Below, piece after piece: positions 2,881 to 14,570 of a stretch of DNA of 64,000 nt. The position numbers were made by a program, and so were the translations under genes. How positions within the stretch are numbered: the first letter of the stretch is position 1; each line of letters opens with the position of its first letter. The stretch comes from Saccharothrix deserti (lineage in GTDB: Bacteria > Actinomycetota > Actinomycetes > Mycobacteriales > Pseudonocardiaceae), in contig NZ_VKAB01000002.1 in assembly GCF_009769385.1 (NCBI RefSeq), positions 434,001 to 498,000 on the forward strand, in the 5' to 3' direction. Below the pieces are notes generated by a model. The model had not been told where the DNA came from. It made no database searches and saw nothing but the letters and a program-made list of their open reading frames with translations.

Positions 2881-2895
2881 TGATAATGATTACCA
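2881..2895. promoter_or_regulatory. Zur-type operator upstream of the metallophore-like operon
   Basis: TGATAATGATTACCA is a 7-1-7 inverted repeat with one mismatched pair. It is AT-rich in a very GC-rich setting and sits 40 bp before the GTG start at 2935. Actinobacterial Zur (zinc-sensing Fur-family repressor) sites have this TGA-AAT-N-ATT-TCA form. It does not look like an IdeR/DmdR iron box. Zinc repression of the downstream operon is inferred. Another Fur-family protein could bind instead. Confidence 0.65.
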
Positions 2896-2934
2896 TTCCC
2901 TCGACCCGGTCCGACGTCCTCCGGAGGAGCACGC

Positions 2935-4191
2935 GTGGCGCACTTGTTGATGATCGAGAGCTGGGTCGGCGCGATGAGCTCGCTGCTGCCACGGGCGATC
3001 CACGAGTCGGGCCACCGGTTCACCTTCCTCACCCGCGATCTGCACCACTACCTGCGTTCCGCGCCAACGCACCCGCACCCGTTGCTGGCGGCGGAGAACG
3101 TGCTCACCTCCGAGACCAACGACATCCCGGCGCTTCTGTCCTATGTGGAGCGTATGCACGAAGTGCTCCCGTTCGACGGCGTGATCTCCTCCTGCGACTA
3201 CTACCTCTCCACCGTCGCCACGGTGGCCAGGCACCTGAACCTGCCCGGTCCCGACCCGCAGGCCGTCGAACGCGCCTACCGCAAGGACCTCACCCGGACC
3301 ACCACCCGCGACGCGGGCGTGCCCGGCCCCCGGTTCGCCCTCACCGAGGACTGGCCCGCCACCGCGAAAGCCGCCGCCGACCTGGGCTACCCGCTGGTGA
3401 TCAAGCCGGTCGACCTGTGCGCCGGGATGCACGTCCGCGAGGTGCGGGACGAGGCCGGTCTCCGCGAGGCGTTCCTCGCCCTGGAGGCGTTCCCGGTCAA
3501 CGCCCGGGGCCAGGAGCGGGTGCCGACCGTGCTGCTCGAGGAACTCCTCGTCGGCCCCGAGGTGAGCGTGGAGACGGTGACGGTGGCCGGCACGACCTAC
3601 GTGATCGGCGTTACGGACAAGAGCCTGGCCGGGCGGCCGTGGTTCGTGGAGAGCGGCCACATGTTCCCGGCCGCCCTGACCGACGCCGACCGGTCCGCCG
3701 CCGTCGACACCGCCGTGGCCGCGATCGAAGCGCTGGGCCTGGACCACGCCGTGGCGCACACCGAGGTCAAGCTGACCGCCGACGGCCCCCGGCTGATCGA
3801 GGTCAACCCGCGCCCGGCGGGCAACCAGATCACCGAACTGGTCCGCCGCGTCACGGGCATCGACCTGCCTTCCGTGTTCGCCCAGCTCGCCGCCGGCCAA
3901 CAGCCCGACCTGCGCGCCCGCGAAACCGGCGTGCGCAGCGCGGCCATCTCGTTCCTGCTGCCACCGCGCGCCGGGGTGCTGGCCGGCATCGACGGCGTCG
4001 ACACCCTGGCCGCGAACCCCGAGGTGGTCGACTGGGCGGCGAAGCCCGCCGGGCACCGGGCCGGCGAACCGACCAGCAACAACAGCTACCTCGGGCACGT
4101 CATGGTCACGTCACCGGACACCGACGCCCGTGACCGGGCGGAACGCGTCGTGAGCACGCTGGAAGTCCGGTACGCGGAGGGTGCCGAGTGA
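2935..4191 (+). CDS. ATP-grasp amino acid/carboxylate-amine ligase
   Basis: A 418-residue protein. GTG 2935 is preceded by GGAGGA (2923-2928), a strong ribosome site. ATP-grasp features are clear: YPLVIKPVD (ATP-binding lysine), a VLLEELLVGPEVSVETV strand, and the metal-binding HTEVKLT and LIEVNPRPAGNQI segment near residue 290. Enzymes of this group activate a carboxylate as acyl-phosphate and join it to an amine, often making dipeptides. The N-terminal domain (about 1-110) is Rossmann-like, as in L-amino-acid ligases. It is the first gene of the operon; its stop overlaps the next start. With a dipeptide-epimerase-like gene downstream, dipeptide formation is a reasonable inference, but the substrates are unknown. 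Confidence 0.85.
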   Translation: MAHLLMIESWVGAMSSLLPRAIHESGHRFTFLTRDLHHYLRSAPTHPHPLLAAENVLTSETNDIPALLSYVERMHEVLPFDGVISSCDYYLSTVATVARHLNLPGPDPQAVERAYRKDLTRTTTRDAGVPGPRFALTEDWPATAKAAADLGYPLVIKPVDLCAGMHVREVRDEAGLREAFLALEAFPVNARGQERVPTVLLEELLVGPEVSVETVTVAGTTYVIGVTDKSLAGRPWFVESGHMFPAALTDADRSAAVDTAVAAIEALGLDHAVAHTEVKLTADGPRLIEVNPRPAGNQITELVRRVTGIDLPSVFAQLAAGQQPDLRARETGVRSAAISFLLPPRAGVLAGIDGVDTLAANPEVVDWAAKPAGHRAGEPTSNNSYLGHVMVTSPDTDARDRAERVVSTLEVRYAEGAE

Positions 4192-5021
4192 CCGCCGAGG
4201 CGGCCCGCCGCCCGCTGTCCGGCGTCACCGAACTCATCGCCCTCGCGCGCACGGGCGGGATGGGACCCGATCCGGCCGAGTGCCGGGTGAGCGTCGCGTT
4301 CACCACCAGGCAGGGCGCCCGGCACGTCTCGCGCGGCCAGGCGTACCGCAACACCGTGATCAGCGTCCGGGTCGGTGACGCGGTCGGCTCGTGCGCGGTC
4401 GAACCAGACGAGGCGGACGACGCGGAGGTGACCGACTGCGTCGGCGAGAGCGTCGCGGACCTGCTCACCCACCCCGACGCCGCGATCCGCACCGCCGTGC
4501 TGGACGCGTACCTGATGAACGCGCACCCGCACGAACTCTCGGCCGCACAGCAGGTCGTGATCGGCCCCGGCGACTCGCTCGCCAAGTCGATGGCCCGCGC
4601 GTCGGCGGTGGTCGACCTGCTGGACGCCGTGCCGGGACAACGGGTGCTGGTCGTCGGCGTGGTGAACTCGCTGCTGCACCACCTGCGCGCCCGCGGCCTG
4701 CGGTACGTGCCGTGCGACCTCAAGGGCGGTCGCACCGAGTGGGACGAGCCGATCGTGACCGACGCCGAGGCCGCCGTCGCGGACTGCGACCTGGTGCTGG
4801 CCTCCGGCATGACGGTCGGGAACGGCAGCTTCGAACGGCTGCTGCGCACCGCGGTCGCCGCCGACCGGCCGCTGGTGGTGTTCGCCCAGACCGCGAGCGC
4901 GATCGTGCCGTGGTTCCTCGGCTCGGGCGTCACGGCGGTGTCGGCGGAGCCGTACCCCTTCTTCTGGCTGCACGGCGGCCCGACCACGCTGCACCACTAC
5001 CGAGCAGAACGGGTCCGGTGA
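4188..5021 (+). CDS. DUF4213/DUF364 'heavy-metal chelation' family protein
   Basis: A 277-residue protein whose GTG start overlaps the ATP-grasp stop. The N-terminal half (about 1-110) fits DUF4213 (AVLDAYLMNAHP before the junction). The C-terminal half is a Rossmann-like DUF364 domain, with RVLVVGVVNSLLHHLRARG and the typical ASGMTVGNGSFERLL segment. Pfam labels both domains putative heavy-metal chelation, based largely on genomic context and structure; a reaction is not established. A copy inside an amino-acid-ligase/PLP/epimerase operon with a Zur-like box supports a metal-linked role. Whether it is an enzyme or a metal-handling protein cannot be decided from sequence. Confidence 0.8.
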   Translation: MTAEAARRPLSGVTELIALARTGGMGPDPAECRVSVAFTTRQGARHVSRGQAYRNTVISVRVGDAVGSCAVEPDEADDAEVTDCVGESVADLLTHPDAAIRTAVLDAYLMNAHPHELSAAQQVVIGPGDSLAKSMARASAVVDLLDAVPGQRVLVVGVVNSLLHHLRARGLRYVPCDLKGGRTEWDEPIVTDAEAAVADCDLVLASGMTVGNGSFERLLRTAVAADRPLVVFAQTASAIVPWFLGSGVTAVSAEPYPFFWLHGGPTTLHHYRAERVR

Positions 5022-6094
5022 CCGTGCTGTCTCCAGCGGGCACACGCCGCAACCACCACCTGCTCGACCTGCTCGGCAACACCCCGGTCGCCCGCATCGA
5101 CACCCCGCTCCCCCACCGCCACGGCGGTTTCTGGGCGAAGCTGGAGTGCCTGAGCGCGGGCGGCATGAAGGCGCGCTCGGCGGTCGCGATGCTGTTGGCC
5201 GCACGTGAACGCGGCGAACTGCGTCCCGGCGCGGTGGTCGTGGAGTCGACCAGCGGCACCCTCGGCCTCGGACTGGCGTTCGCCGGTCAGGCGTTGGGGC
5301 ACCCGGTCGTGCTGGTGGTCGACCACGAGTTGGAACCGTCGATGCGCGCGCTGCTCCGCGCCCACGGCGCCCGGCTGGAGGTCGTGGACCGGCCGCACCC
5401 GACCGGCGGCTGGCAGCAGGCCCGGCTGGACCGGCTCCAGTCGGTGCTGCGCGGGCTGCCGGGCGCGTACTGGCCCGACCAGTACAACAACCCCGACAAC
5501 CCCGCCGGGTACACGGGTCTGGCCCGGGAACTCGCGACCCAACTGGACCGCGCCGACGTGCTGGTGTGCAGCGTGGGCACCGGCGGGCACAGCGCCGGCG
5601 TCGTCACGGCCCTGCGCCGCTACTGGCCCGACGTGCGGCTGATCGGCGTGGACACCGTCGGCTCGACCATCTTCGGCCAGCCCGCCCGGTCACGCGTGAT
5701 GCGCGGCCTGGGCAGCAGCATCCACCCGCGCAACGTCGCCTACGAGGAGTTCGACGAGGTGCACTGGCTCGGCCCGGTGGAGGTGGTCGACGCCTGCCGC
5801 AGGCTCGCCCGGGACTGCTTCGTCACCGGCGGCTGGAGCACCGGCGCGGTCGCCCTGGTGTCGGCGTGGGTGGCGCGCGTCGAGCCGGGCGCGACCGTGG
5901 TGACGATCTTCCCGGACGGTCCGCACCGCTATCTCGGCACCATCTTCGACGACGATTTCTGCCGGTCACGGGGTCTGTTGGGGACGCCGGAGGACCGGCC
6001 GGTGGAGATCGCGGACACGGCGGAGATCGAGGTCACCAGCTGGGCCAGGTGCCGGTCGGTGTACGCGCCCAAGGCCGTCGGGGTGCCGGCGTGA
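5018..6094 (+). CDS. PLP-dependent cysteine-synthase-family enzyme
   Basis: A 358-residue fold-type II PLP enzyme, with its GTG start coupled to the preceding stop. Visible motifs are LLGNTPV at the N-terminus, the likely PLP lysine in SAGGMKARSA, a substrate loop STSGTLGLGLA in place of the usual TSGNTG, and the phosphate-binding glycine loop VGTGGHSAG. The changed substrate loop argues against ordinary O-acetylserine sulfhydrylase and for a dedicated beta-replacement enzyme. SbnA, which joins O-phosphoserine to glutamate in staphyloferrin B synthesis, is a known metallophore example. Here a beta-replacement on a serine derivative by an amine nucleophile is inferred. The C-terminal tail after residue 310 is extra relative to CysK. 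Confidence 0.85.
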   Translation: MTVLSPAGTRRNHHLLDLLGNTPVARIDTPLPHRHGGFWAKLECLSAGGMKARSAVAMLLAARERGELRPGAVVVESTSGTLGLGLAFAGQALGHPVVLVVDHELEPSMRALLRAHGARLEVVDRPHPTGGWQQARLDRLQSVLRGLPGAYWPDQYNNPDNPAGYTGLARELATQLDRADVLVCSVGTGGHSAGVVTALRRYWPDVRLIGVDTVGSTIFGQPARSRVMRGLGSSIHPRNVAYEEFDEVHWLGPVEVVDACRRLARDCFVTGGWSTGAVALVSAWVARVEPGATVVTIFPDGPHRYLGTIFDDDFCRSRGLLGTPEDRPVEIADTAEIEVTSWARCRSVYAPKAVGVPA

Positions 6095-7107
6095 AGCTCG
6101 ACTGGACGGTGTACGGGCTGGAGCTGCGGTCGCCGTTGCGCATCTCGCGGTCGGTGATGGCACGTCGTGACGCCGTGCGCGTGGTGGTCGAGTGCGACGG
6201 GTTGCGCGGGCACGGCGAGGTGGTGACGAGCCAGTACTACGGGCTGGACGTCTCGCGGATCACCGGTCTGCTGCGGGACTTGGCGCCGGTGGTGGCCGGG
6301 TGCGCTGGGCCTGCGGAGTTGCGCGAACGCCTGCCGGAGCTGCCGCCGGGAGTGCTGGCCGCCGTGGACACCGCCCTGCACGACCTGACGGCGTTGCGGC
6401 AAGGGGTGCCGGTGCACGCCCTCGTCGGCGTTCCACAGTGGACGGACGTGCCGACGGCCTGCACGATCGGTATCGGTGACCCGGCGACGGCTGCCGCCAA
6501 CGCCGCCGAACTGGCCGCACGCGGGTTCACCGTGCTGAAGGTCAAGGTCGGCTCGGAGCACGACGTCGCCACCGTCAAGGCGATCCGGGCCGCCGCGCCG
6601 GACGCGCGCCTCATCCTCGACCCCAACGGCGGTTGGACCGCCGAGCAGGCCGTCCGGATCGTCGAACAGCTCACCGGCGTCGACGCCTTGGAGCAGCCGA
6701 TCGCACCCGGCCGACCGGACGACCTGGCGTGGCTGCACGACCGGTGCCCGGTGCCGTTGATCGCGGACGAGGACGCGGCCACCGCCGCCGACGTGCGTGC
6801 GCTGGCGGGCGTGGTCGACGGCGTGAACGTCAAGCTGGCCAAGTGCGGCGGGATCACCGCGGCCCGCGAGATCATCGACATCGCGCACGCGTCCGGCCTG
6901 GACGTCATGCTCGGCTGCCTGGTGGCCAGTTCGCTCGGCATCGCGCCGGCCGTGCACCTGACCGGCCACGCCCGGTGGGTCGACCTGGACGGCCACCTCC
7001 TGCTCGCCGACGACCCGTGGACCGGTATCGGCGGTGAGGACGGCACGCTGCGGCTGTCCCCCGCGCCCGGTCTCGGCGTGGTGTCCAAAAGGGTTGAGCA
7101 CCGATGA
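6091..7107 (+). CDS. enolase-superfamily dipeptide epimerase-like enzyme
   Basis: A 338-residue protein, GTG start coupled to the previous stop. It belongs to the mandelate-racemase/muconate-lactonizing subgroup. Seen in order are the KxK acid/base pair in LKVKVG, metal ligands in DPNGGW, LEQPI and ADED, the opposite-face lysine in NVKLAKCGG, and a GCLVASS plus DLDGHLLL C-terminus. The last two resemble L-Ala-D/L-Glu epimerases (GCMxES, DLDG), which epimerise dipeptides. All catalytic residues are present, so activity is expected. Next to an ATP-grasp ligase it suggests stereochemical editing of a dipeptide-like intermediate. o-Succinylbenzoate synthase or N-acylamino-acid racemase relatives are the main alternatives. 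Confidence 0.85.
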   Translation: MKLDWTVYGLELRSPLRISRSVMARRDAVRVVVECDGLRGHGEVVTSQYYGLDVSRITGLLRDLAPVVAGCAGPAELRERLPELPPGVLAAVDTALHDLTALRQGVPVHALVGVPQWTDVPTACTIGIGDPATAAANAAELAARGFTVLKVKVGSEHDVATVKAIRAAAPDARLILDPNGGWTAEQAVRIVEQLTGVDALEQPIAPGRPDDLAWLHDRCPVPLIADEDAATAADVRALAGVVDGVNVKLAKCGGITAAREIIDIAHASGLDVMLGCLVASSLGIAPAVHLTGHARWVDLDGHLLLADDPWTGIGGEDGTLRLSPAPGLGVVSKRVEHR

Positions 7108-8285
7108 GGCGTTTCCCTCTGTCGGTGCGCGTGCTGCTGGTCAACCAGTTCGGCGTGAACACCGGTTTCTACCTGCTGATCCCCTACCTGGCCACGCACC
7201 TGGGCGACCTCGGCCTGTCGGTGGCGACGATCGGCGTGGTGCTCGGCGTGCGGACGTTGAGCCAGCAGGGGCTGTTCCTGCTCGGCGGCTCGGCGTCCGA
7301 CCGGCTCGGCCCGCGCCGGATCATCATCGCGGGCTGCGCGATCCGGGCGATCGGGTTCGGGCTGTTCGCGGCGGGCGAGTCGGTGGCGGTGCTGCTGGCC
7401 GCGTCCGTGCTCAGCGGGCTCGCGGGCGCGTTGTTCAACCCGGCCGTGCGCGCCTACATCGCCGAGGAGTCGTCCGACCGGGCGGGCGCGTTCGCCCTGT
7501 TCAACATCTACGGGCAGGCGGGCGCGCTGACCGGTCCGCTGCTGGGCAGCCTGCTGATGCTGTGGGACTTCCGGATCGCCGCGCTGGTCGCGGCCGGGAT
7601 CTTCGCCGTGCTCACCGTCGTGCAGGCGGTCGTGCTGCCCGCACGTCCCGCCCCGCCGCACCAGGGCACCGTGCTGGACGACTGGCGCGAGTGCCTGGCC
7701 GACCGCCGGTTCCTCGCGTTCACCGGCGCGCTCACCGGCATGTTCGTGCTCCAGAACCAGCTCTACCTGGTGCTGCCGTTGGAGGCACGGCGGCTCACCG
7801 ACTCGGCGCTCGCCGTCGCGGCCGTGTTCCTGGTGTCCACGGTGGCCACTCTGCTGTTCCAGGTGCGCATCACCAAGGCGCTGAAGCGGATGGCACGCGG
7901 CCGGGTGATCGCGCTCGGGCTCGCCGTCATGGGGCTGGGGTTCGTGGCGACGGCGGTGAGCCACGTCGGCCCGCTCGGCGGCATCACGCCCGTCCTGGTC
8001 GCGGCGCTGCTGCTGTCGGTGGGCGTGATGATCGCGCACCCGTTCGTCTACGAGCTGATCCCGGCATTCGGCCGCACTGGGCTCGCGGGCACCTACTTCG
8101 GCGTGTTCTACCTGGTCTCGGGCGTCGCCGCGGCCTTGGGCAACGCGGCGATCGGCTGGGTGTTCGGCCGGTCGGGCTGGGTGGCGTCCCTGCTGTGCGT
8201 GGCGATCGGGCTCGGGTGCGCGGCGGCCGTGGCCCGCTTGCACCGACGTGGCGTGCTCGCCAAGAACCGAGAGGTGGCCCGATGA
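7104..8285 (+). CDS. MFS transporter, probable exporter of the operon product
   Basis: A 393-residue, 12-helix major facilitator. The signature between helices 2 and 3 is present (GGSASDRLGPRRIII). ATG 7104 overlaps the epimerase stop. Drug/metabolite efflux MFS proteins of this size commonly secrete small metallophores. Position between the biosynthetic and uptake genes supports export of the product. Nothing in the sequence specifies the substrate. Confidence 0.85.
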   Translation: MRRFPLSVRVLLVNQFGVNTGFYLLIPYLATHLGDLGLSVATIGVVLGVRTLSQQGLFLLGGSASDRLGPRRIIIAGCAIRAIGFGLFAAGESVAVLLAASVLSGLAGALFNPAVRAYIAEESSDRAGAFALFNIYGQAGALTGPLLGSLLMLWDFRIAALVAAGIFAVLTVVQAVVLPARPAPPHQGTVLDDWRECLADRRFLAFTGALTGMFVLQNQLYLVLPLEARRLTDSALAVAAVFLVSTVATLLFQVRITKALKRMARGRVIALGLAVMGLGFVATAVSHVGPLGGITPVLVAALLLSVGVMIAHPFVYELIPAFGRTGLAGTYFGVFYLVSGVAAALGNAAIGWVFGRSGWVASLLCVAIGLGCAAAVARLHRRGVLAKNREVAR

Positions 8286-9148
8286 CGCTGAACGCGAACC
8301 GGCCGAACACGAACCCGCCGAACGCGAACCCGCTGAACACGAGCCCGGCGGGCGAGAACCTGCTGACCGACAACCCGGCGCTCTACGAGCACCAGTTCCC
8401 CGATCCCGACCACGTCGCCGCCCGGTTCACGCACGACATCGTGACGCGCTTCGGGGTTGGCCGCGATTCCGGGGTTGGCCGCGGCCTGCTGGACGTCGGC
8501 TGCGGCACCGGCCGCGACGCCGGCCACCTGGCGAGCCTCGGCTACCGAGTGGTCGGGCTGGACAGCTCCGAGCGGATGGTCGAGTACGCCCGCGAGCACC
8601 ACCCGGCGGTCTCGTTCGTGCGCGGCGACATGCGGTCGTTCTCCCTCGGTCAGCGCTTCGACGTGATCACGTGCCTGGACAGCGCGCTGCTGTACTGCCA
8701 CACGAACGCCGACCTGGACGATTTCCTGCGCCGCTGCCGCGACCACCTGTCACCCGGCGGCCTGCTGGTGGCGGAGATGCGCAACGGCGCGTTCTTCCTC
8801 GGCAACACCGAACTGCTCGACGGCGCCCGCGCCCGCACCGTCGTCTGGGAGGGCGTGCCCTACACCTCGCACACCAAGCTGTGGATCGACCACGCCGCCC
8901 AGCTGCTGCGCAGGCGGCGCGAGTGGTGGTGGCCCGGCGCCCAGCCGCTGGTGCAGCGCTCCGCGTGGCGGCTGCTGTTCCCCCAGGAACTGCGCCACTT
9001 CCTGGACCAGGCCGGGTTCGACGTGCTGGCCCTGTTCGACTCGCCGGGCCCGCGCACCGACGAGCCCTGGACCTCCGACGCCGAGCTGCGCGAAGACCTG
9101 TCCGGAGACCGCCTGCACCTCGTCGCGCGCCTTCGCGAGCCCCAGTGA
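8282..9148 (+). CDS. SAM-dependent methyltransferase
   Basis: A 288-residue class I methyltransferase. Motif I is LLDVGCGTGRDAGHLASLGY (about residue 75), followed by VVGLDSSERMV (the adenosyl-binding acidic strand). The C-terminus carries a conserved FDxPGPRTDEPW-type tail. ATG 8282 overlaps the MFS stop. The first 25 residues are an odd Asn/Pro-rich low-complexity stretch (NANRPNTNPPNANPLNTSP) made from imperfect DNA repeats; family members usually begin near the DNPALYEHQF segment. It probably N- or O-methylates an intermediate of the operon product (inferred). Confidence 0.85.
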   Translation: MTLNANRPNTNPPNANPLNTSPAGENLLTDNPALYEHQFPDPDHVAARFTHDIVTRFGVGRDSGVGRGLLDVGCGTGRDAGHLASLGYRVVGLDSSERMVEYAREHHPAVSFVRGDMRSFSLGQRFDVITCLDSALLYCHTNADLDDFLRRCRDHLSPGGLLVAEMRNGAFFLGNTELLDGARARTVVWEGVPYTSHTKLWIDHAAQLLRRRREWWWPGAQPLVQRSAWRLLFPQELRHFLDQAGFDVLALFDSPGPRTDEPWTSDAELREDLSGDRLHLVARLREPQ

Positions 9149-9174
9149 TGCGCCGCCCAGTGAAAGGAACGACC

Positions 9175-10713
9175 ATGCACCCCCTCAACCGCCGCGGTTT
9201 CCTCGGCCTCACCGCTGGTCTGTCGATCGCCGCTCTCACCGGCTGCGGGACGGCAAGCGGCCCGGCGTCCACCGCGTCCACGCCACGCGACGGCGGCCGG
9301 CTGCGCGCGGCGTTCGCGGGCGGCGGCGCCAAGGAGGTGCTGGACCCGCACCTGGCGAACCTGTTCGTGGAGGCCGCCCGGTCCAAGGCGCTGTACGACA
9401 AGCTCGCCGACCTCGGCCCGGACGTCTCGGCGCAGCCCAGACTCGCCGAGAAGTGGGAGCCCGACGCCACCCTGACCCACTGGCGGATCACCCTGCGCCA
9501 GGCCGCGTTCCACAACGGCCAGCCCGTGCGCGCGGACGACGTGCTGGCCAGTTACGCCCGCATCCTCGACCCCGGCCGCGCGTTCCGGGCCAAGTCCAGC
9601 CTCGCGCTGATCGACCTGCCGAACAGCCGCGCGGTGGACGACCGGACGGTCGAGTTCGCGCTGAAGCGGCCGTTCGTGGAGTTCCCCAACGCGCTCGCCG
9701 CGTTCGGCGCGTACATCGTGCCCGCCGGCACCGAGGACTTCACCAAGCCCGTCGGCTCGGGACCGTTCAGCTTCGTCTCGTTCGAGCCCGGCAAGTCGGT
9801 GCTGCTCAAGCGGTACGCCGAGTACTGGGAGGGCGCGCCGCACCTGGACGAGCTGGAGTTCGTGATCGCCAACGAGGAGTCGGCGCGGGCGAACGCGCTG
9901 CTCGGCGGCCAGGTCGAGTACGCGCACGACCTGACCCCGACCACCGCGCGCAGCCACGCGGCCAGTGACCGGATGGCGATCCACCGCGCGCCCAACAGCG
10001 CCGTGCAGGCGTTCGCGATGAAGCTGGACCGGCCGCCGTTCGACAACAGCGACCTGCGCGAGGCGCTGTTCCTGCTGGCCGACCGGCCGCAGCTGGTCGA
10101 GTCGGTGCTGGCGGGCAGCGGTCAGGTCGGCAACGACCTGTTCGGCAAGGGCTACCAGCACTACGCCGACGACATCCCGCAGCGCACCCGCGACCTGGAC
10201 AAGGCGAAGTTCCTGATCCGCCGGGCCGGCGCCGAGGGGCTGACGGTCAAGCTGGACACGTCCACCGCGGCGGCCGGGATGGTGGAGGCGGCCACGGTGT
10301 TCGCCGACCAGGTCAAGGGCTCGGGGCTGACCATCGAGGTCGTCACCGGCAACAAGGACAGCTACTGGGCCGACACCTTGAAGAACGGGTCGCTGTCGAG
10401 CTTCCGGTCCGGCGCGATGCCGATCGAGACGCACATCGCGCAGCGCCTGCTGACCGGTTCGGGCACCAACGTGACCAAGTGGGCCAGGCCCGAGTTCGAC
10501 GCCCTGTACGACAAGGCGGTGTCCACTGTGGACGCGGCCGAGCGCGGCGCGGTGTACCGGGAGATGCAACGCTCCCTGCACACCGAGGGCGGCTACCTGA
10601 TGTGGGGCTTCGCGGACTGGATCGTCGGCGCCGCGCCACGGGTCGGCGGCATCTCCACCGCGCCCGCGAACACGCTGGACTGGGCGCGGTTCGACAAGGT
10701 GTGGTTGGGGTGA
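9175..10713 (+). CDS. Tat-exported lipoprotein, Opp/Nik-type ABC substrate-binding protein
   Basis: A 512-residue SBP_bac_5 (peptide/nickel) binding protein. I choose ATG 9175 because AAAGGA lies 8 nt upstream; an in-frame ATG at 9148 would overlap the methyltransferase stop. The N-terminus has a twin-arginine motif (RRGFLGLTAG) and a lipobox (LTGC, Cys near residue 24), so it is probably folded before export and anchored outside the membrane. This family binds oligopeptides, nickel-chelates or opine-metal complexes. It is followed at once by both permeases and the ATPase. Uptake of the metal-loaded product is inferred. Confidence 0.88.
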   Translation: MHPLNRRGFLGLTAGLSIAALTGCGTASGPASTASTPRDGGRLRAAFAGGGAKEVLDPHLANLFVEAARSKALYDKLADLGPDVSAQPRLAEKWEPDATLTHWRITLRQAAFHNGQPVRADDVLASYARILDPGRAFRAKSSLALIDLPNSRAVDDRTVEFALKRPFVEFPNALAAFGAYIVPAGTEDFTKPVGSGPFSFVSFEPGKSVLLKRYAEYWEGAPHLDELEFVIANEESARANALLGGQVEYAHDLTPTTARSHAASDRMAIHRAPNSAVQAFAMKLDRPPFDNSDLREALFLLADRPQLVESVLAGSGQVGNDLFGKGYQHYADDIPQRTRDLDKAKFLIRRAGAEGLTVKLDTSTAAAGMVEAATVFADQVKGSGLTIEVVTGNKDSYWADTLKNGSLSSFRSGAMPIETHIAQRLLTGSGTNVTKWARPEFDALYDKAVSTVDAAERGAVYREMQRSLHTEGGYLMWGFADWIVGAAPRVGGISTAPANTLDWARFDKVWLG

Positions 10714-11654
10714 GCCTGCGCCGGTACGCGGCCCGGCGGCTGGCCATCGGCGCGGTCCAGGTGCTCGCCGTCGTCACCGTCGTGTTCCTCCTGGTGCAGG
10801 CGTTGCCGGGGGACGCGGCGGTGGCGTTGGCGGGCGACAACCCGGACCCTCGCCGGATCGAGGAGATCCGGACCGCGATGGGCCTGGACCGGCCGCCGCT
10901 CGACCGGTTCGGCGGGTGGCTGTGGGGTCTCGTGCACGGTGACTTCGGCGTGTCCCTGATCTCCGGCCGGCCCGTCGTGGAGTTCCTGCACGACGGGCTC
11001 GGCCCGACGCTCGTGCTGGCGCTGCTCGCCCTCGTACTGCTGATCCCGCTGTCGGTGCTGCTCGGCGTGCTGGCCGCGTTGCGCGAGGGCGGCGTGCTGG
11101 ACCGGATCGTCACCACGGTCACCGTGGGGCTGCACTCGATCCCGGAGTTCGCGCTGGCCGTCGTGCTCATCGCGTTGTTCGGGGTGCAGCTGCAGTGGCT
11201 GCCGCCGACGGCGGTGGGTGCGGATCTGTTGGCGGAGCCCGCCGTGCTGGTGCTGCCGCTGGTGGTGCTCGTGGCCCGGCCGTTGTGCTCGATCAGCCGC
11301 CTGGTGCGGGCCGGGATGATCGACGCGCTGGCGTCGGACTACGTCCGGCACGCCCGCCGGCTGGGCATCGGGGTGAACCGCGTCCGGTTCGCGCACGCCC
11401 TGCCGACCGCGCTGGCGCCGGCCGTGCAGCAGGTGGCGCGGACCACCGACTGGCTGCTGGGCGGCGTGATCGTGGTCGAGGCGGTGTTCGTCATCCCCGG
11501 TCTGGGCACCACGCTGGTGGACGCGGTCGCGGGCCGTGACCTGCCGGTGGTGCAGGGGCTGGCGGTGGTCTTCGCGGTCACCACCGTGGTGGTGAACCTG
11601 GTCGCGGACCTGGTCGTGTTCCGGCTCGCGCCGCGATCGGTGGCGATCGCGTGA
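10710..11654 (+). CDS. ABC transporter permease, DppB/NikB type
   Basis: A 314-residue membrane protein; GTG 10710 overlaps the binding-protein stop. It shows the DppB layout: N-terminal helix (VLAVVTVVFLLVQALPGDAA), then a core with the EAA-type coupling loop near SDYVRHARRLGIGVNRV and a terminal IPGLGTTLVDAVAGRD segment. It should form the pore with the next gene product. Translational coupling through the whole importer implies equimolar expression. Confidence 0.88.
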   Translation: MSLRRYAARRLAIGAVQVLAVVTVVFLLVQALPGDAAVALAGDNPDPRRIEEIRTAMGLDRPPLDRFGGWLWGLVHGDFGVSLISGRPVVEFLHDGLGPTLVLALLALVLLIPLSVLLGVLAALREGGVLDRIVTTVTVGLHSIPEFALAVVLIALFGVQLQWLPPTAVGADLLAEPAVLVLPLVVLVARPLCSISRLVRAGMIDALASDYVRHARRLGIGVNRVRFAHALPTALAPAVQQVARTTDWLLGGVIVVEAVFVIPGLGTTLVDAVAGRDLPVVQGLAVVFAVTTVVVNLVADLVVFRLAPRSVAIA

Positions 11655-12439
11655 GCCGCTTGAATCCCGTGCGGGGCGTCGGCGCGCTGCTCGTCGTGGT
11701 GCCGTTGGCGTTGGCGCTGGTCGGGCCGTGGTTCGTGCCGGACTCCCCGACGAGGGGCGCGCCGTTCACCCCGAACTCGTCGTTGGGCACCGATTTCGTC
11801 GGCCGGGACGTGTGGCACCAGGTGCTCGCGGGCGGGCAGACGGTGGTGCTGGTCGCGTTGCTGGCGACGTTGTTCTCCTACGTCGTGGGCGTGCCGTGGG
11901 GCGTGATGGCCGCGATGTCACGGCCCCGGATCGTGGACGAGGTGCTGATGCGGCCCCTCGACCTGCTGCTCGCGGTGCCGTCCCTGCTCGTGCTGATCCT
12001 GGTGGCCGCCATCGCCGGCCCGGGTCTGCCGGTGCTGATCGGTGTCGTGGCACTGGTCAACTTCCCCGATGTGGCACGGATTTCCCGTGCCGCCGCGCTG
12101 GAGATCTCCGGACGTCCCGCCTTGGAGGCGATGCGGTTGCAAGGCGAGACGTGGTGGCGGACGTCCATCGTCTACACGGGACGGTCGATGCTGCGGACCC
12201 TGGCCGCGGACCTGGGCGTCCGGCTGACCGGTGCGCTCTACCTGGTCGCGTCGGCCAGCTTCCTCGGTGTCGGGGTGGCGCCGGACGCCGCCGACTGGGC
12301 CGTGATGGTCGACCGCAACCGGGTCGGTCTGTTCCTCCAGCCGTGGGCGGTGGTCGTGCCCGCGGTGCTCATCGTGGCGTTGTCGGTCGGGCTGAACCTG
12401 GTGTTCGACCGGGCACTGCGTGCGGAGGCGCGGACATGA
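11651..12439 (+). CDS. ABC transporter permease, DppC/NikC type
   Basis: A 262-residue membrane protein, GTG start overlapping the previous stop. It has the DppC N-terminal signature (LGTDFVGRDVWHQVLAGG) and an EAA loop near residues 155-175 (ALEAMRLQGETWW). It pairs with the preceding permease to make the translocation channel. Confidence 0.88.
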   Translation: MSRLNPVRGVGALLVVVPLALALVGPWFVPDSPTRGAPFTPNSSLGTDFVGRDVWHQVLAGGQTVVLVALLATLFSYVVGVPWGVMAAMSRPRIVDEVLMRPLDLLLAVPSLLVLILVAAIAGPGLPVLIGVVALVNFPDVARISRAAALEISGRPALEAMRLQGETWWRTSIVYTGRSMLRTLAADLGVRLTGALYLVASASFLGVGVAPDAADWAVMVDRNRVGLFLQPWAVVVPAVLIVALSVGLNLVFDRALRAEART

Positions 12440-13908
12440 CGCCCGTGGTGCACGTCGAGGGCCTGCGCGCGGTGGCCGGGTCGAAGACCCTGGTCGACGG
12501 GGTGAGCTTCGCGCTGTCCGCCGGGCGGGTGGTCGCGCTGGTCGGCGCGTCCGGCAGCGGCAAGACCACCACGGGGCTGGCGCTGCTCGGCGAGCACGCG
12601 CCGGGGGTGGCGGTGAGCGGGCAGGTCACGGTGACCGGGCACGTCGGGTTCGTCCCGCAGCAACCGTCGGCGGCGCTGAACCCGGTGCGACGGCTCGGTG
12701 GCGTGTTCCGGGAGATCGCCGCGTTGCACCCCGGTGATCGGGACGAGCTGATCGCCACGGCACTGCGTCGCGCACGGGTGCCCGCCGAGTTGCTGCGCCG
12801 CTACCCGCACGAGCTGTCCGGTGGTCAGCAGCAGCGCGTGGTGCTGGCCCAGGCGCTGGTCGGCGATCCGGCGGTGATCGTCGCGGACGAGCCCACCACG
12901 GGCCAGGACCCGATCACGCGGGCCGAAGTGGTGGACGAGCTCGCGTCCGTCGTGGCTCAGGGTGTCTCGCTGGTCCTGCTCACGCACGACCTGGACGTCG
13001 TGCGCGCGTTGGCGGACGAGGTGGTCGTCCTGCGGTCGGGTCAGGTGGTCGAGGCGGGGCCGACGGCCGACGTGCTCGACCGGCCGCGCTCGGCGTACGC
13101 GGCTGCCTTGGTCGCCGCACAGCCCCGCGTCACGATGGCCTCGGGTCGCCCGCCCGCTCCGCCTCGGCTGGAGACCCGCGCGGTGACGGCGCGGCACGGC
13201 TCCACCACCGTGCTGCGTGACGTCGACGTGCAGGTGGGTGCGGGTGAATGCCTCGCGGTCGTGGGTCGGTCCGGCAGCGGGAAGACGACGCTCGCCCGGT
13301 GCCTCGCCGGGCTGCACCCCGCGTTCACCGGTGACGTGCTGCTCGACGGTCGGCCGCTGCCACGGTCGCTGCGCCGGCGTTCACGTGCCGAGCTGGCCGC
13401 CGTTCAGTACGTGTTCCAGGACGCCCGCGCGTCGTTCGACTCGTACCGCACGGTGCTCGACCAGGTGGGCCGCACCGCCGTGCGCCTTGGCGGGGTCACC
13501 GATCCCCGAGAGGTGGCGTTGGCGGAACTGGCCGCCGTGGGGCTGGACGAGGCGACCGTGACCCGCCGACCGGCGGGGTTGTCCGGCGGCGAGCTGCAAC
13601 GGGCCGCGCTGGTGCGCGCGCTGCTCGCCCGGCCGGACGTGCTGGTGTGCGACGAGATCACGTCCGGGCTGGACACCCTGACCCAGGCGAGCCTGCTCGA
13701 CCAGCTCGCCGCTTTGACCTGCACCGTGGTGCTGATCAGCCACGACCTGGCCGTGGTGGCGAGGCTGGCCGACCGCGTCGCCGTGCTGCACCAAGGACAC
13801 GTCGTCGAGCACGGAGCGGCAGGCGACGTACTGGGCTCCCCCACCCATCCGGTGACCACTGGCCTCCTGGGCCGCGCAATGGAAGGAACAGAGGAGAAAA
13901 GGAAATGA
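12436..13908 (+). CDS. fused double ABC ATPase (DppD-DppF fusion)
   Basis: 490 residues containing two complete nucleotide-binding domains. Walker A is GASGSGKTT (first half) and GRSGSGKTT (second half); ABC signatures are LSGGQQQRV and LSGGELQRA. Both Walker B segments are intact (VIVADEPTT and VLVCDEITS). Opp/Dpp systems usually encode these as two proteins; fusions occur in actinobacteria. ATG 12436 overlaps the permease stop. It powers import through the two permeases. Confidence 0.9.
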   Translation: MTPVVHVEGLRAVAGSKTLVDGVSFALSAGRVVALVGASGSGKTTTGLALLGEHAPGVAVSGQVTVTGHVGFVPQQPSAALNPVRRLGGVFREIAALHPGDRDELIATALRRARVPAELLRRYPHELSGGQQQRVVLAQALVGDPAVIVADEPTTGQDPITRAEVVDELASVVAQGVSLVLLTHDLDVVRALADEVVVLRSGQVVEAGPTADVLDRPRSAYAAALVAAQPRVTMASGRPPAPPRLETRAVTARHGSTTVLRDVDVQVGAGECLAVVGRSGSGKTTLARCLAGLHPAFTGDVLLDGRPLPRSLRRRSRAELAAVQYVFQDARASFDSYRTVLDQVGRTAVRLGGVTDPREVALAELAAVGLDEATVTRRPAGLSGGELQRAALVRALLARPDVLVCDEITSGLDTLTQASLLDQLAALTCTVVLISHDLAVVARLADRVAVLHQGHVVEHGAAGDVLGSPTHPVTTGLLGRAMEGTEEKRK

Positions 13909-14456
13909 CCTTGTACCACCGCGAAGTAGGGCCCTACGAGGTCCGCCGGGCGACCGAGGCCGACCTGCCCGGCGCGCGCAGCGTCATGCTGGACACCTTC
14001 TACCACGAGTTCGGCTACGGCTACCGGCCCGAGTGGCACGGTGACGTGGTCGACCTCGACGGGGCGTACGTGCGGCCGGAGCGGCACGCGTTGTTCGTCG
14101 CGGTGAAGGGTGACGAGGTGGTGGCCACGACCGGTGTGCGCGCCACGGCGCCGTCCAGCCCGCCGCACCCGGCCTGGCTCGCCGCCCGTTACCCCGACGG
14201 CAGCACCGCCCAGCTGTTCCGCGTGTACGTGCGGCCCGAGCACCGGCGCTGCGGCCTGGCGCGGGCGTTGGTCGACATGGCCACGTCGTTCGTCGCGCGG
14301 ACGCCGGGTTACGAAGCGCTGTACCTGCACACCGACACCAGGATCGCCGGGGCCGAGCCGTTCTGGCGGAGCGTGGCGACGGAGGTGCACGACGCGCGTG
14401 ACGGCGACCCGATCAGCTTCCAGACCGTCCACTTCGAGATCCCGTTGGGACGCTGA
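13905..14456 (+). CDS. GNAT-family N-acetyltransferase
   Basis: A 183-residue protein, ATG 13905 overlapping the ATPase stop, with a purine-rich GAGGAGAAAAGGAA before it. The acetyl-CoA-binding segment (VYVRPEHRRCGLARALV) matches the GNAT R/Q-x-x-G-x-G/A motif. It may acetylate or release an operon intermediate, or serve as self-protection. Last gene of the operon; the hairpin at 14477-14512 follows. Confidence 0.8.
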   Translation: MTLYHREVGPYEVRRATEADLPGARSVMLDTFYHEFGYGYRPEWHGDVVDLDGAYVRPERHALFVAVKGDEVVATTGVRATAPSSPPHPAWLAARYPDGSTAQLFRVYVRPEHRRCGLARALVDMATSFVARTPGYEALYLHTDTRIAGAEPFWRSVATEVHDARDGDPISFQTVHFEIPLGR

Positions 14457-14476
14457 GCGGCGGGGGTTTGAAACCA

Positions 14477-14512
14477 GGTGGGCAGACGGATGAGGTAACA
14501 CGTCTGCCCACC
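14477..14512 (+). terminator. hairpin terminator of the metallophore-like operon
   Basis: A 12-bp perfect stem (GGTGGGCAGACG / CGTCTGCCCACC) with a 12-nt loop, 20 bp after the GNAT stop and without a T-tract, typical of high-GC actinomycetes. Confidence 0.7.
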
Positions 14513-14570
14513 CGGCAAGTTCGGGGGTGAGGCCGCTCCGGCTGTTCGCCGGGGTGCCTGCCTCTAGAGT

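Follow-up and report, generated by a model that had tools for sequence, protein, structure and literature searches.

A putative Zur-controlled zinc metallophore operon in Saccharothrix deserti and the actinobacterial gene clusters that share its core

A stretch of 64,000 nucleotides from the soil actinobacterium Saccharothrix deserti (contig NZ_VKAB01000002.1, positions 434,001 to 498,000; hereafter the window) contains an operon of eleven genes, g1 to g11, preceded by a palindrome resembling the binding site of the zinc regulator Zur. The operon is likely, with a probability of roughly 0.7, to be a Zur-repressed system for a secreted zinc metallophore. In particular, its gene families indicate that the product is most likely a peptide-tailored metallophore of aminopolycarboxylate type, which the cell would synthesise, release and take up again. 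This reading is carried by the Zur-like boxes found before the operon and its relatives, by a gene order in which biosynthesis and transport genes are kept together, and by the features of two core proteins, an SbnA-like enzyme and a DUF364 protein.

If this is correct, the operon would exemplify a new class of pathways leading to small zinc chelators in Streptomyces and related bacteria, and would give DUF364 its first biochemical role. It would also point to a cobalt metallophore controlled by vitamin B12.

Operon conservation and zinc control

Gene order, conservation, Zur boxes and family memberships were read directly from the sequence. The open reading frames (ORFs) of the window give eleven forward-strand genes from 2935 to 14456, in a host genome of 10.8 Mb (G000, contig C2). 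The features are as follows.

2881..2895, + strand: Zur-like 7-1-7 palindrome TGATAATGATTACCA, lying 39 nt upstream of g1
2935..4191, + strand: g1, ATP-grasp amino-acid ligase (ATP-grasp_4 and LAL_C2 domains; GTG start)
4188..5021, + strand: g2, DUF364 protein, a predicted two-domain enzyme (PF04016; core gene)
5018..6094, + strand: g3, SbnA-like pyridoxal phosphate (PLP) beta-replacement enzyme of the PALP family (TIGR03945; core gene; GTG start)
6091..7107, + strand: g4, enolase-superfamily enzyme resembling dipeptide epimerases (Pfam, NCBIfam, catalytic residues)
7104..8285, + strand: g5, major facilitator superfamily (MFS) transporter, likely an exporter (MFS_1)
8282..9148, + strand: g6, class I S-adenosylmethionine-dependent methyltransferase (Pfam, NCBIfam)
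9148..10713, + strand: g7, SBP_bac_5 solute-binding lipoprotein of Nik/Opp type (Pfam, NCBIfam; start possibly the ATG near 9175)
10710..11654, + strand: g8, ATP-binding cassette (ABC) permease 1 of Nik/Opp type (BPD; Pfam, NCBIfam)
11651..12439, + strand: g9, ABC permease 2 of Nik/Opp type (BPD; Pfam, NCBIfam)
12436..13908, + strand: g10, double ABC ATPase (two ABC_tran stretches and oligo_HPY; Pfam)
13905..14456, + strand: g11, GNAT acetyltransferase, accessory (Pfam; in 48/80 relatives)
14474..14515, + strand: strong hairpin without a U-tract (folding compared with shuffles)

Nine of the ten gene junctions are 4-bp overlaps, the exception being g6/g7, where the genes overlap by 1 bp or are separated by a gap if g7 begins at its later ATG. 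A preliminary description of this DNA had reported the eleven co-directional genes, the nine overlaps, the palindrome and the hairpin, all of which were confirmed on re-reading. Its family calls (ATP-grasp, DUF364, SbnA-type PALP, epimerase-like enzyme, MFS, methyltransferase, Opp/Nik importer and GNAT) were borne out by Pfam and NCBIfam.

The palindrome is one mismatch away from the idealised TGATAATGATTATCA, and at up to three mismatches the window holds two matches, a single site read on both strands, against 0.03 expected. One mismatch also separates it from tGaNNatSatNNtCa, the motif obtained for Streptomyces coelicolor Zur by chromatin immunoprecipitation (PMC5472717). The comparison was extended to 80 related loci (the best 80 of 291), with roughly 300 bp before g1 scanned in 79 of them, L048 being too short. 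A Zur-like box with at most three mismatches precedes g1 in 68 of the 79 promoters; the mismatches number one in 22 promoters, two in 27, three in 19, four in eight and five in two, and one promoter is masked by N. At the same threshold the reversed pattern was found in none of the 79 promoters, and Markov shuffles gave 5 matches in 1580. The possibility of a chance palindrome was rejected on the basis of the window expectation and of these 68 promoters against none for the reversed pattern.

Across the host genome, six sites match TGAWAATGATTWTCA at up to two mismatches, and the reversed pattern has one. Besides the site of the window operon, there is one at an operon 4.6 kb upstream of it, which encodes an anchored-repeat, AztC-like ABC substrate-binding protein (TIGR03772 above its cut-off, with the zinc-binding AztC as runner-up below cut-off). 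Another (L084, G000:C3:388944) belongs to a ZigA-like COG0523 GTPase (476 of 600 bits) adjoining a Fur-family-like gene, and a fourth to a FecCD-like ABC system recognised by eye. The fifth (L087, G000:C32:45058) lies between an ABC exporter and a facing gene with weak matches to nonribosomal peptide synthetases (NRPSs), possibly a second, coelibactin-like zincophore of this genome. The last falls inside a helicase-like gene (by eye) and is perhaps due to chance. The operon thus has the promoter box of a Zur regulon member, and its motif is common to zinc-type genes of the same genome. Zinc control through Zur, proposed in the preliminary description, is well supported by these comparative data.

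Some of these loci have further features. The anchored-repeat gene (L081:10625-12298, on G000:C2) diverges from genes for repeat-type surface proteins, with the Zur box between them and a second, weaker box visible by eye. The Fur-family-like gene of L084 has an odd N-terminal stretch in an open frame and a short masked run, and the NRPS-like gene of L087 appears by eye to encode a carrier and a cyclisation/condensation domain.

The order and strand of g1 to g10 are kept in 73 of the 80 related loci. Among the seven exceptions, L047, L058 and L066 are short records, L033 contains 4655 N, and L029, L039 and L050 miss genes without N runs. All 80 loci contain g1, g2 and g3, and the importer genes are nearly as constant within the related operons (g7 in 75/80, g8 in 74/80, g9 in 76/80 and g10 in 76/80). 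The GNAT gene g11 is accessory: it follows the operon on the + strand in 36 loci, lies on the - strand in 12 and is absent from 32. Hosts include Saccharothrix, Lentzea, Actinokineospora and other Pseudonocardiaceae, Micromonospora, Actinoplanes, Nonomuraea, Streptomyces, Frankia and others, and plasmids of Rhodococcus and Streptomyces also bear the gene set. Among the related loci, the closest operons are those of Saccharothrix, with protein identities of up to 97%. A gene set confined to one strain was rejected, given the 73 loci which keep g1 to g10. The make, export and re-import logic put forward earlier is well supported by the conserved association of MFS and importer genes with the biosynthesis genes.

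Architectures and metal switches of the core

Relatives of the DUF364 gene occur in 82 of 200 genomes sampled from the family and in 30 of 394 sampled from the class. Forty fetched stretches and the plasmid loci L096-L099 and L103 sort into three architectures on the basis of their genes (tblastn). Type A is the operon of the window, present in seven of the 40 stretches and on plasmid loci L096 and L103. Type K, found in 12 stretches (L110, L114-L123, L143) and in L097-L099, combines DUF364 with a remote SbnA-like PALP (131-141 bits to the SbnA model in two members). Its 15 loci include a GHMP kinase in 12 (PF00288 48.4 and 41.5 bits in two of them), an MFS gene in 14 (not L116), a FecBCD-type importer in 14 (not L117) and a small methyltransferase in seven. 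Type B, with 21 stretches (L106, L108, L109, L111, L112, L124-L139), consists of DUF364, an SbnA-like enzyme and an MFS transporter, with an adjoining Nik/Opp importer in 13/21, which has Opp5A_nikA as its best NCBIfam match, below cut-off. The 21 type B loci belong to a single family; when 150 genomes of the order were searched with type B DUF364 (E 1e-60), three matches came back, all of them known type A or K copies.

In the DUF364 tree, types A, B and K each occupy one side of a branch, with support of 92/79, 99/97 and 100/100. The PALP tree separates B and K in the same way, though not A, and places K on a very long branch. A difference due merely to host phylogeny was rejected, as 16 of the 21 type B genomes hold a second DUF364 copy; four of these copies were assigned to type A or K by gene content (L105, L107, L110, L141) and the others by identity. 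From this comparison, the SbnA-like enzyme and DUF364 form a portable, conserved core. The preliminary description had proposed a small dipeptide- or diamino-acid-based chelator, possibly epimerised and methylated. Within the operon, the SbnA-like and DUF364 proteins stand as the conserved heart, whereas the ligase, the epimerase and the methyltransferase g6 are additions of type A, and the GNAT protein is accessory.

The types also differ in their switches. Zur-like boxes (up to three mismatches) are present in 14 of the 15 type K loci, L116 being the exception, and their coordinates place them at the cluster promoters. Such boxes also precede g1 in all seven type A stretches of the same fetches and occur in plasmid locus L103. 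None of the 21 type B promoters has one, with a single stray site in L138 against a motif background of roughly 280 kb of type B stretches. Instead, all 21 carry an Rfam Cobalamin riboswitch on the coding strand, with scores of 85-103 bits (gathering threshold 31.5), 199-331 nt before the DUF364 match. The same Rfam model gave no match in the 16 type A and K sources tested, namely the window, L001, L009, L025, L041, L107, L113, L140, L141 and L142 for type A, and L097, L099, L116, L117, L121 and L143 for type K (L098 excluded).

Eight type B units have no adjoining importer. If type B serves metal uptake, an importer is therefore expected elsewhere under the same switch, and in all eight genomes a Nik/Opp-type lipoprotein gene does lie at another locus behind a separate cobalamin riboswitch. 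These genes lie 201-473 nt after the riboswitch, and their products are 67-74% identical to the lipoprotein of type B locus L108. For four genomes (G101, G129, G186 and G079) the stretches were read (L182, L190, L197 and L199), while in the other four the lipoprotein gene and riboswitch were placed (G137:C1:4330248, G120:C1:2224117, G153:C28:50211 and G046:C1:94488). Riboswitch matches number 7 or 8 in each of the eight genomes, at E up to 0.001. Both permease genes follow the lipoprotein gene in all four stretches which were read; next to these, L190 and L197 also have an ATPase gene like that of type B, and in L182 and L199 none was found. Since six of the genomes come from one genus (g46) and two from another (g25), they represent fewer than eight independent events.

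These data suggest that the same core chemistry also serves cobalt collection. Type B is a candidate B12-controlled cobalt metallophore system, on account of its cobalamin riboswitch and Nik-like importer. The tie to zinc drawn in the preliminary description consequently holds for the Zur control of the window operon but not for the core itself, whose closest relatives lie behind cobalamin riboswitches. We regard as evenly balanced the broader proposal that the SbnA-like and DUF364 proteins are a two-enzyme metallophore chassis, which actinobacteria would re-wire between metals by swapping switch and importer. Zur would direct it to zinc, with peptide tailoring in type A and kinase-fed synthesis and FecBCD import in type K. 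A cobalamin riboswitch with a Nik-type importer would direct it to cobalt in type B, which would be switched on at low B12, its biosynthesis and importer sometimes sitting at two unlinked loci, each with its own riboswitch.

Predicted enzymes and proposed pathway

The g3 protein scores 253.7 bits against TIGR03945 (SbnA), below the equivalog cut-off of 349.95, and its best match in the PDB is SbnA (5d87). In comparison with that structure, g3 retains K47 and R132 and has Tyr at 152. The PLP lysine, Arg 132 and Tyr 152 are invariant in all 46 type A and B sequences, which also share Thr for N77, His for S189 and Gly at 185. The chain in 5d87 has F at 152, which we take to be an engineered change. 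The enzymes of types A and B probably use similar substrates, because this residue set is almost identical in the two. No SbnB partner was found: no protein of the host genome exceeds the SbnB cut-off (best 95.7 of 326.9 bits), and the operon has none by Pfam. Free 2,3-diaminopropionic acid (Dap) made through SbnB was accordingly rejected as the product. Two further SbnA-like genes of the host (L144 and L146, on G000:C14 and C16) score 258.6 and 251.9 bits, also below cut-off.

The g2 protein belongs to DUF364 (PF04016, 41.5 bits against a gathering cut-off of 23); a type B member, L106, reaches 21.5 bits, just under that cut-off. Its AlphaFold2 model (pLDDT 90.5) is a confidently predicted two-domain protein with 3l5o, a DUF364 structure, as the best Foldseek match (TMq 0.61-0.62); a PDB search with the g2 sequence found no DUF364 match, whereas the fold search found this one. 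An alignment of 61 sequences, made up of the window copy and 60 others from types A, B and K without the long-branch row L121_K, has 43 positions conserved at a level of 95% or more. Such conservation, with the predicted two-domain fold, is consistent with an enzyme. In the 3l5o paper a catalytic cleft was deduced, and genomic neighbours led its authors to suggest a part in making chelators, with flavin/pterin-like compounds or siderophores as the products named; the sections consulted describe no such operon and no Zur or cobalamin control (PMC2954201). Several DUF364 copies sit in long open frames of similar length, about 540-590 aa, and these may be fused or overlapping with a small methyltransferase (upstream in L097).

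Among the additions of type A, g1 has the L-amino acid ligase BL00235 (3vot) as its nearest solved structure and shows similarity to enzymes of this class, among them BacD and, at a low level, DdaF. ATP-grasp relatives in L100-L102 belong to other pathways. In L100 (6822-9098, a Streptomyces globosus plasmid), the ATP-grasp ligase also matches a protein carrying a PLP-enzyme annotation, with a kinase gene, a lyase-family gene and a pair of NRPS genes beside it. Dipeptide epimerases of the enolase superfamily have a KxK motif and a second catalytic Lys, metal-ligand acids, and a DxD motif for the free ammonium group. In g4, K150, K152, D177, E201, D226 and K248 are invariant among 10 sequences, and DxD at 298/300 is present in all nine which reach it (row L041 ends before the motif); the dipeptide-epimerase pattern is thus complete, although the NCBIfam scores stay below all cut-offs. 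The transporter g5 matches MFS_1 with 123.6 bits and, below cut-off, MdtH as best NCBIfam model (140.9 bits). The lipoprotein g7 begins with a signal recognised by eye (RRGFLG...LTGC), and its best NCBIfam model, Opp5A_nikA, is likewise below cut-off. Substrates are not readable from these families because the NCBIfam scores lie under the cut-offs of the named ones.

Protein families and literature are the source for all chemical steps, the transport direction, the way Zur acts and the choice of zinc as cargo. Zinc-loaded Zur on the box at 2881 would hold the operon off, and zinc starvation would release the repression. Starting from O-phosphoserine or O-acetylserine, the g3 enzyme would then form a serine-derived aminoacrylate and couple it to a second amino acid through the amino group of the latter, which would yield an N-(2-amino-2-carboxyethyl)-amino acid. 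This is the building block of marasmines and also the product type of SbnA, which joins O-phosphoserine and Glu. Because no SbnB stands beside g3, the conjugate is probably retained as the chelating scaffold. DUF364 (g2) would carry out a second core step. In type A, amide-bond formation by g1 would add an amino acid, a stereocentre of the dipeptide-like compound would be inverted by g4, and g6 would add a methyl group; in type K, the GHMP kinase would supply an O-phospho-amino acid to the PALP. The product would leave through g5, and the metal complex would be re-imported by g7 with g8-g10. NikA, of the family of g7, binds the Zn-, Ni- and Co-complexes of aspergillomarasmine A (AMA; PMC11091072), and the scaffold and importer types therefore fit each other. 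An aminopolycarboxylate scaffold with Nik-type uptake is hence chemically coherent.

Known systems and alternative explanations

Marasmines (aspergillomarasmine A, toxin A) are made by a fungal pathway, which is likened to the bacterial operon by description; to our knowledge, DUF364, a ligase, an epimerase, a Zur box and a dedicated importer are not part of it. There, O-phosphoserine is joined to an amino acid by a PLP enzyme resembling cysteine synthase, the partner being Asp for AMA synthase (PMC12751119), and the conjugate is kept as a Zn, Ni and Co chelator, as proposed here (PMC12751119, PMC11091072). For staphyloferrin B (SbnA/SbnB), SbnA is the nearest relative of g3 in sequence, but the operon has no SbnB over cut-off and no Pfam match to synthetases of NRPS-independent siderophores, g3 is below the equivalog cut-off, and the replacements of N77 and S189 set the type A and B enzymes apart. 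The [S,S]-ethylenediamine-disuccinate (EDDS) system aes of Amycolatopsis japonicum is a Zur-controlled actinobacterial aminopolycarboxylate pathway with an SbnA-type enzyme; it reportedly contains an SbnB-like gene and lacks DUF364, ATP-grasp and epimerase genes, and on this description the window operon differs from it.

Opine zincophores (staphylopine, pseudopaline; cnt) are likewise small amino-acid chelators with an exporter and an Opp- or FecCD-type importer, and actinobacterial cnt clusters have been described with both importer types (PMC7438024). None of the eleven products has a Pfam match to an opine dehydrogenase (CntM) or to a CntL/nicotianamine-synthase-like protein, and an opine chelator was rejected for want of a CntM-like match. 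The comparison with cnt and sbn suggested in the preliminary description, run by family matches, thus distinguishes the operon from both (no CntM/CntL, no SbnB). A word search of the opine-zincophore survey found no mention of DUF, ATP-grasp, EDDS or cysteine synthase (PMC7438024), and antiSMASH has an 'aminopolycarboxylic acid' class (PMC11260486). Searches of the open-licence PMC literature (DUF364, PF04016, zincophore themes) found no description of the operon, in agreement with the earlier remark that this exact enzyme set was not recognised in any characterised pathway. Four cobalophore-type names for a cobalt metallophore returned no paper among 5.39 million open papers.

Several points weigh against a secreted zinc metallophore. 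The proteins matched by NCBIfam (g1, g3-g9) all score below the cut-offs of the nearest named families, and the direction of transport by g5 and the core step of DUF364 are assumed. Eleven of the 79 promoters have no box at up to three mismatches (eight with four, two with five, one masked), a few of the three-mismatch matches, such as that of L032, look like chance, and the type A locus L096 on a Rhodococcus plasmid has no Zur-like box before g1. Moreover, a dipeptide epimerase, a ligase and an Opp-type importer also suit peptide metabolism. The operon might instead utilise peptides or D-amino acids, its ligase and epimerase remodelling scavenged dipeptides. The DxD motif of g4 and the Opp/Nik-type importer agree with this, but there is no peptidase among the eleven products (Pfam, NCBIfam), SbnA-like and MFS genes are unsuited to catabolism, and Zur boxes and cobalamin riboswitches indicate metal supply and not amino-acid supply; we hold this explanation to be very unlikely. 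An antibiotic-like dipeptide or antimetabolite of the bacilysin/dapdiamide kind, with an ATP-grasp ligase, SbnA-type Dap synthesis, MFS self-resistance and a production merely responsive to zinc, is somewhat more plausible and still quite unlikely. It would account for the likeness of g1 to L-amino acid ligases including BacD and DdaF, for the MFS gene and for the methyltransferase. It would not be expected to keep importer genes in the operon in nearly all relatives (74-76/80), nor to have Zur boxes of the kind that lie next to zinc-type genes of the same genome, nor to have relatives of its core which lack the ligase and stand under cobalamin riboswitches.

Two further explanations retain the chelator and alter its use. 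The product may be a broad or non-zinc metallophore, for nickel, cobalt or iron, under Zur because of a secondary need in zinc-free cells; this is unlikely, if the least so of the rival explanations. The Nik-like importer (Opp5A_nikA being the best model for g7), the binding of Zn, Ni and Co by a marasmine (PMC11091072) and the inclination of type B towards cobalt speak for it, against which types A and K mostly have Zur boxes and never a cobalamin riboswitch among the 16 sources tested. Least probable of all is an intracellular zinc buffer in which the MFS protein is not an exporter. The assumed direction of that protein and the eight type B units without an adjoining importer would allow it, but those eight genomes hold the Nik/Opp-type lipoprotein gene behind a second cobalamin riboswitch, and importers are present in type A and in 14 of 15 type K loci.

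At the borders of the operon, two further features were recorded. The hairpin at 14474-14515 has a folding energy of -28.9 kcal/mol (z -4.7), with 0/200 shuffles equally good, and is no textbook intrinsic terminator, since the U-tract is missing after it. Upstream of the operon, at 1948-2475 of the window, lies an ORF which by eye resembles a Nudix hydrolase.

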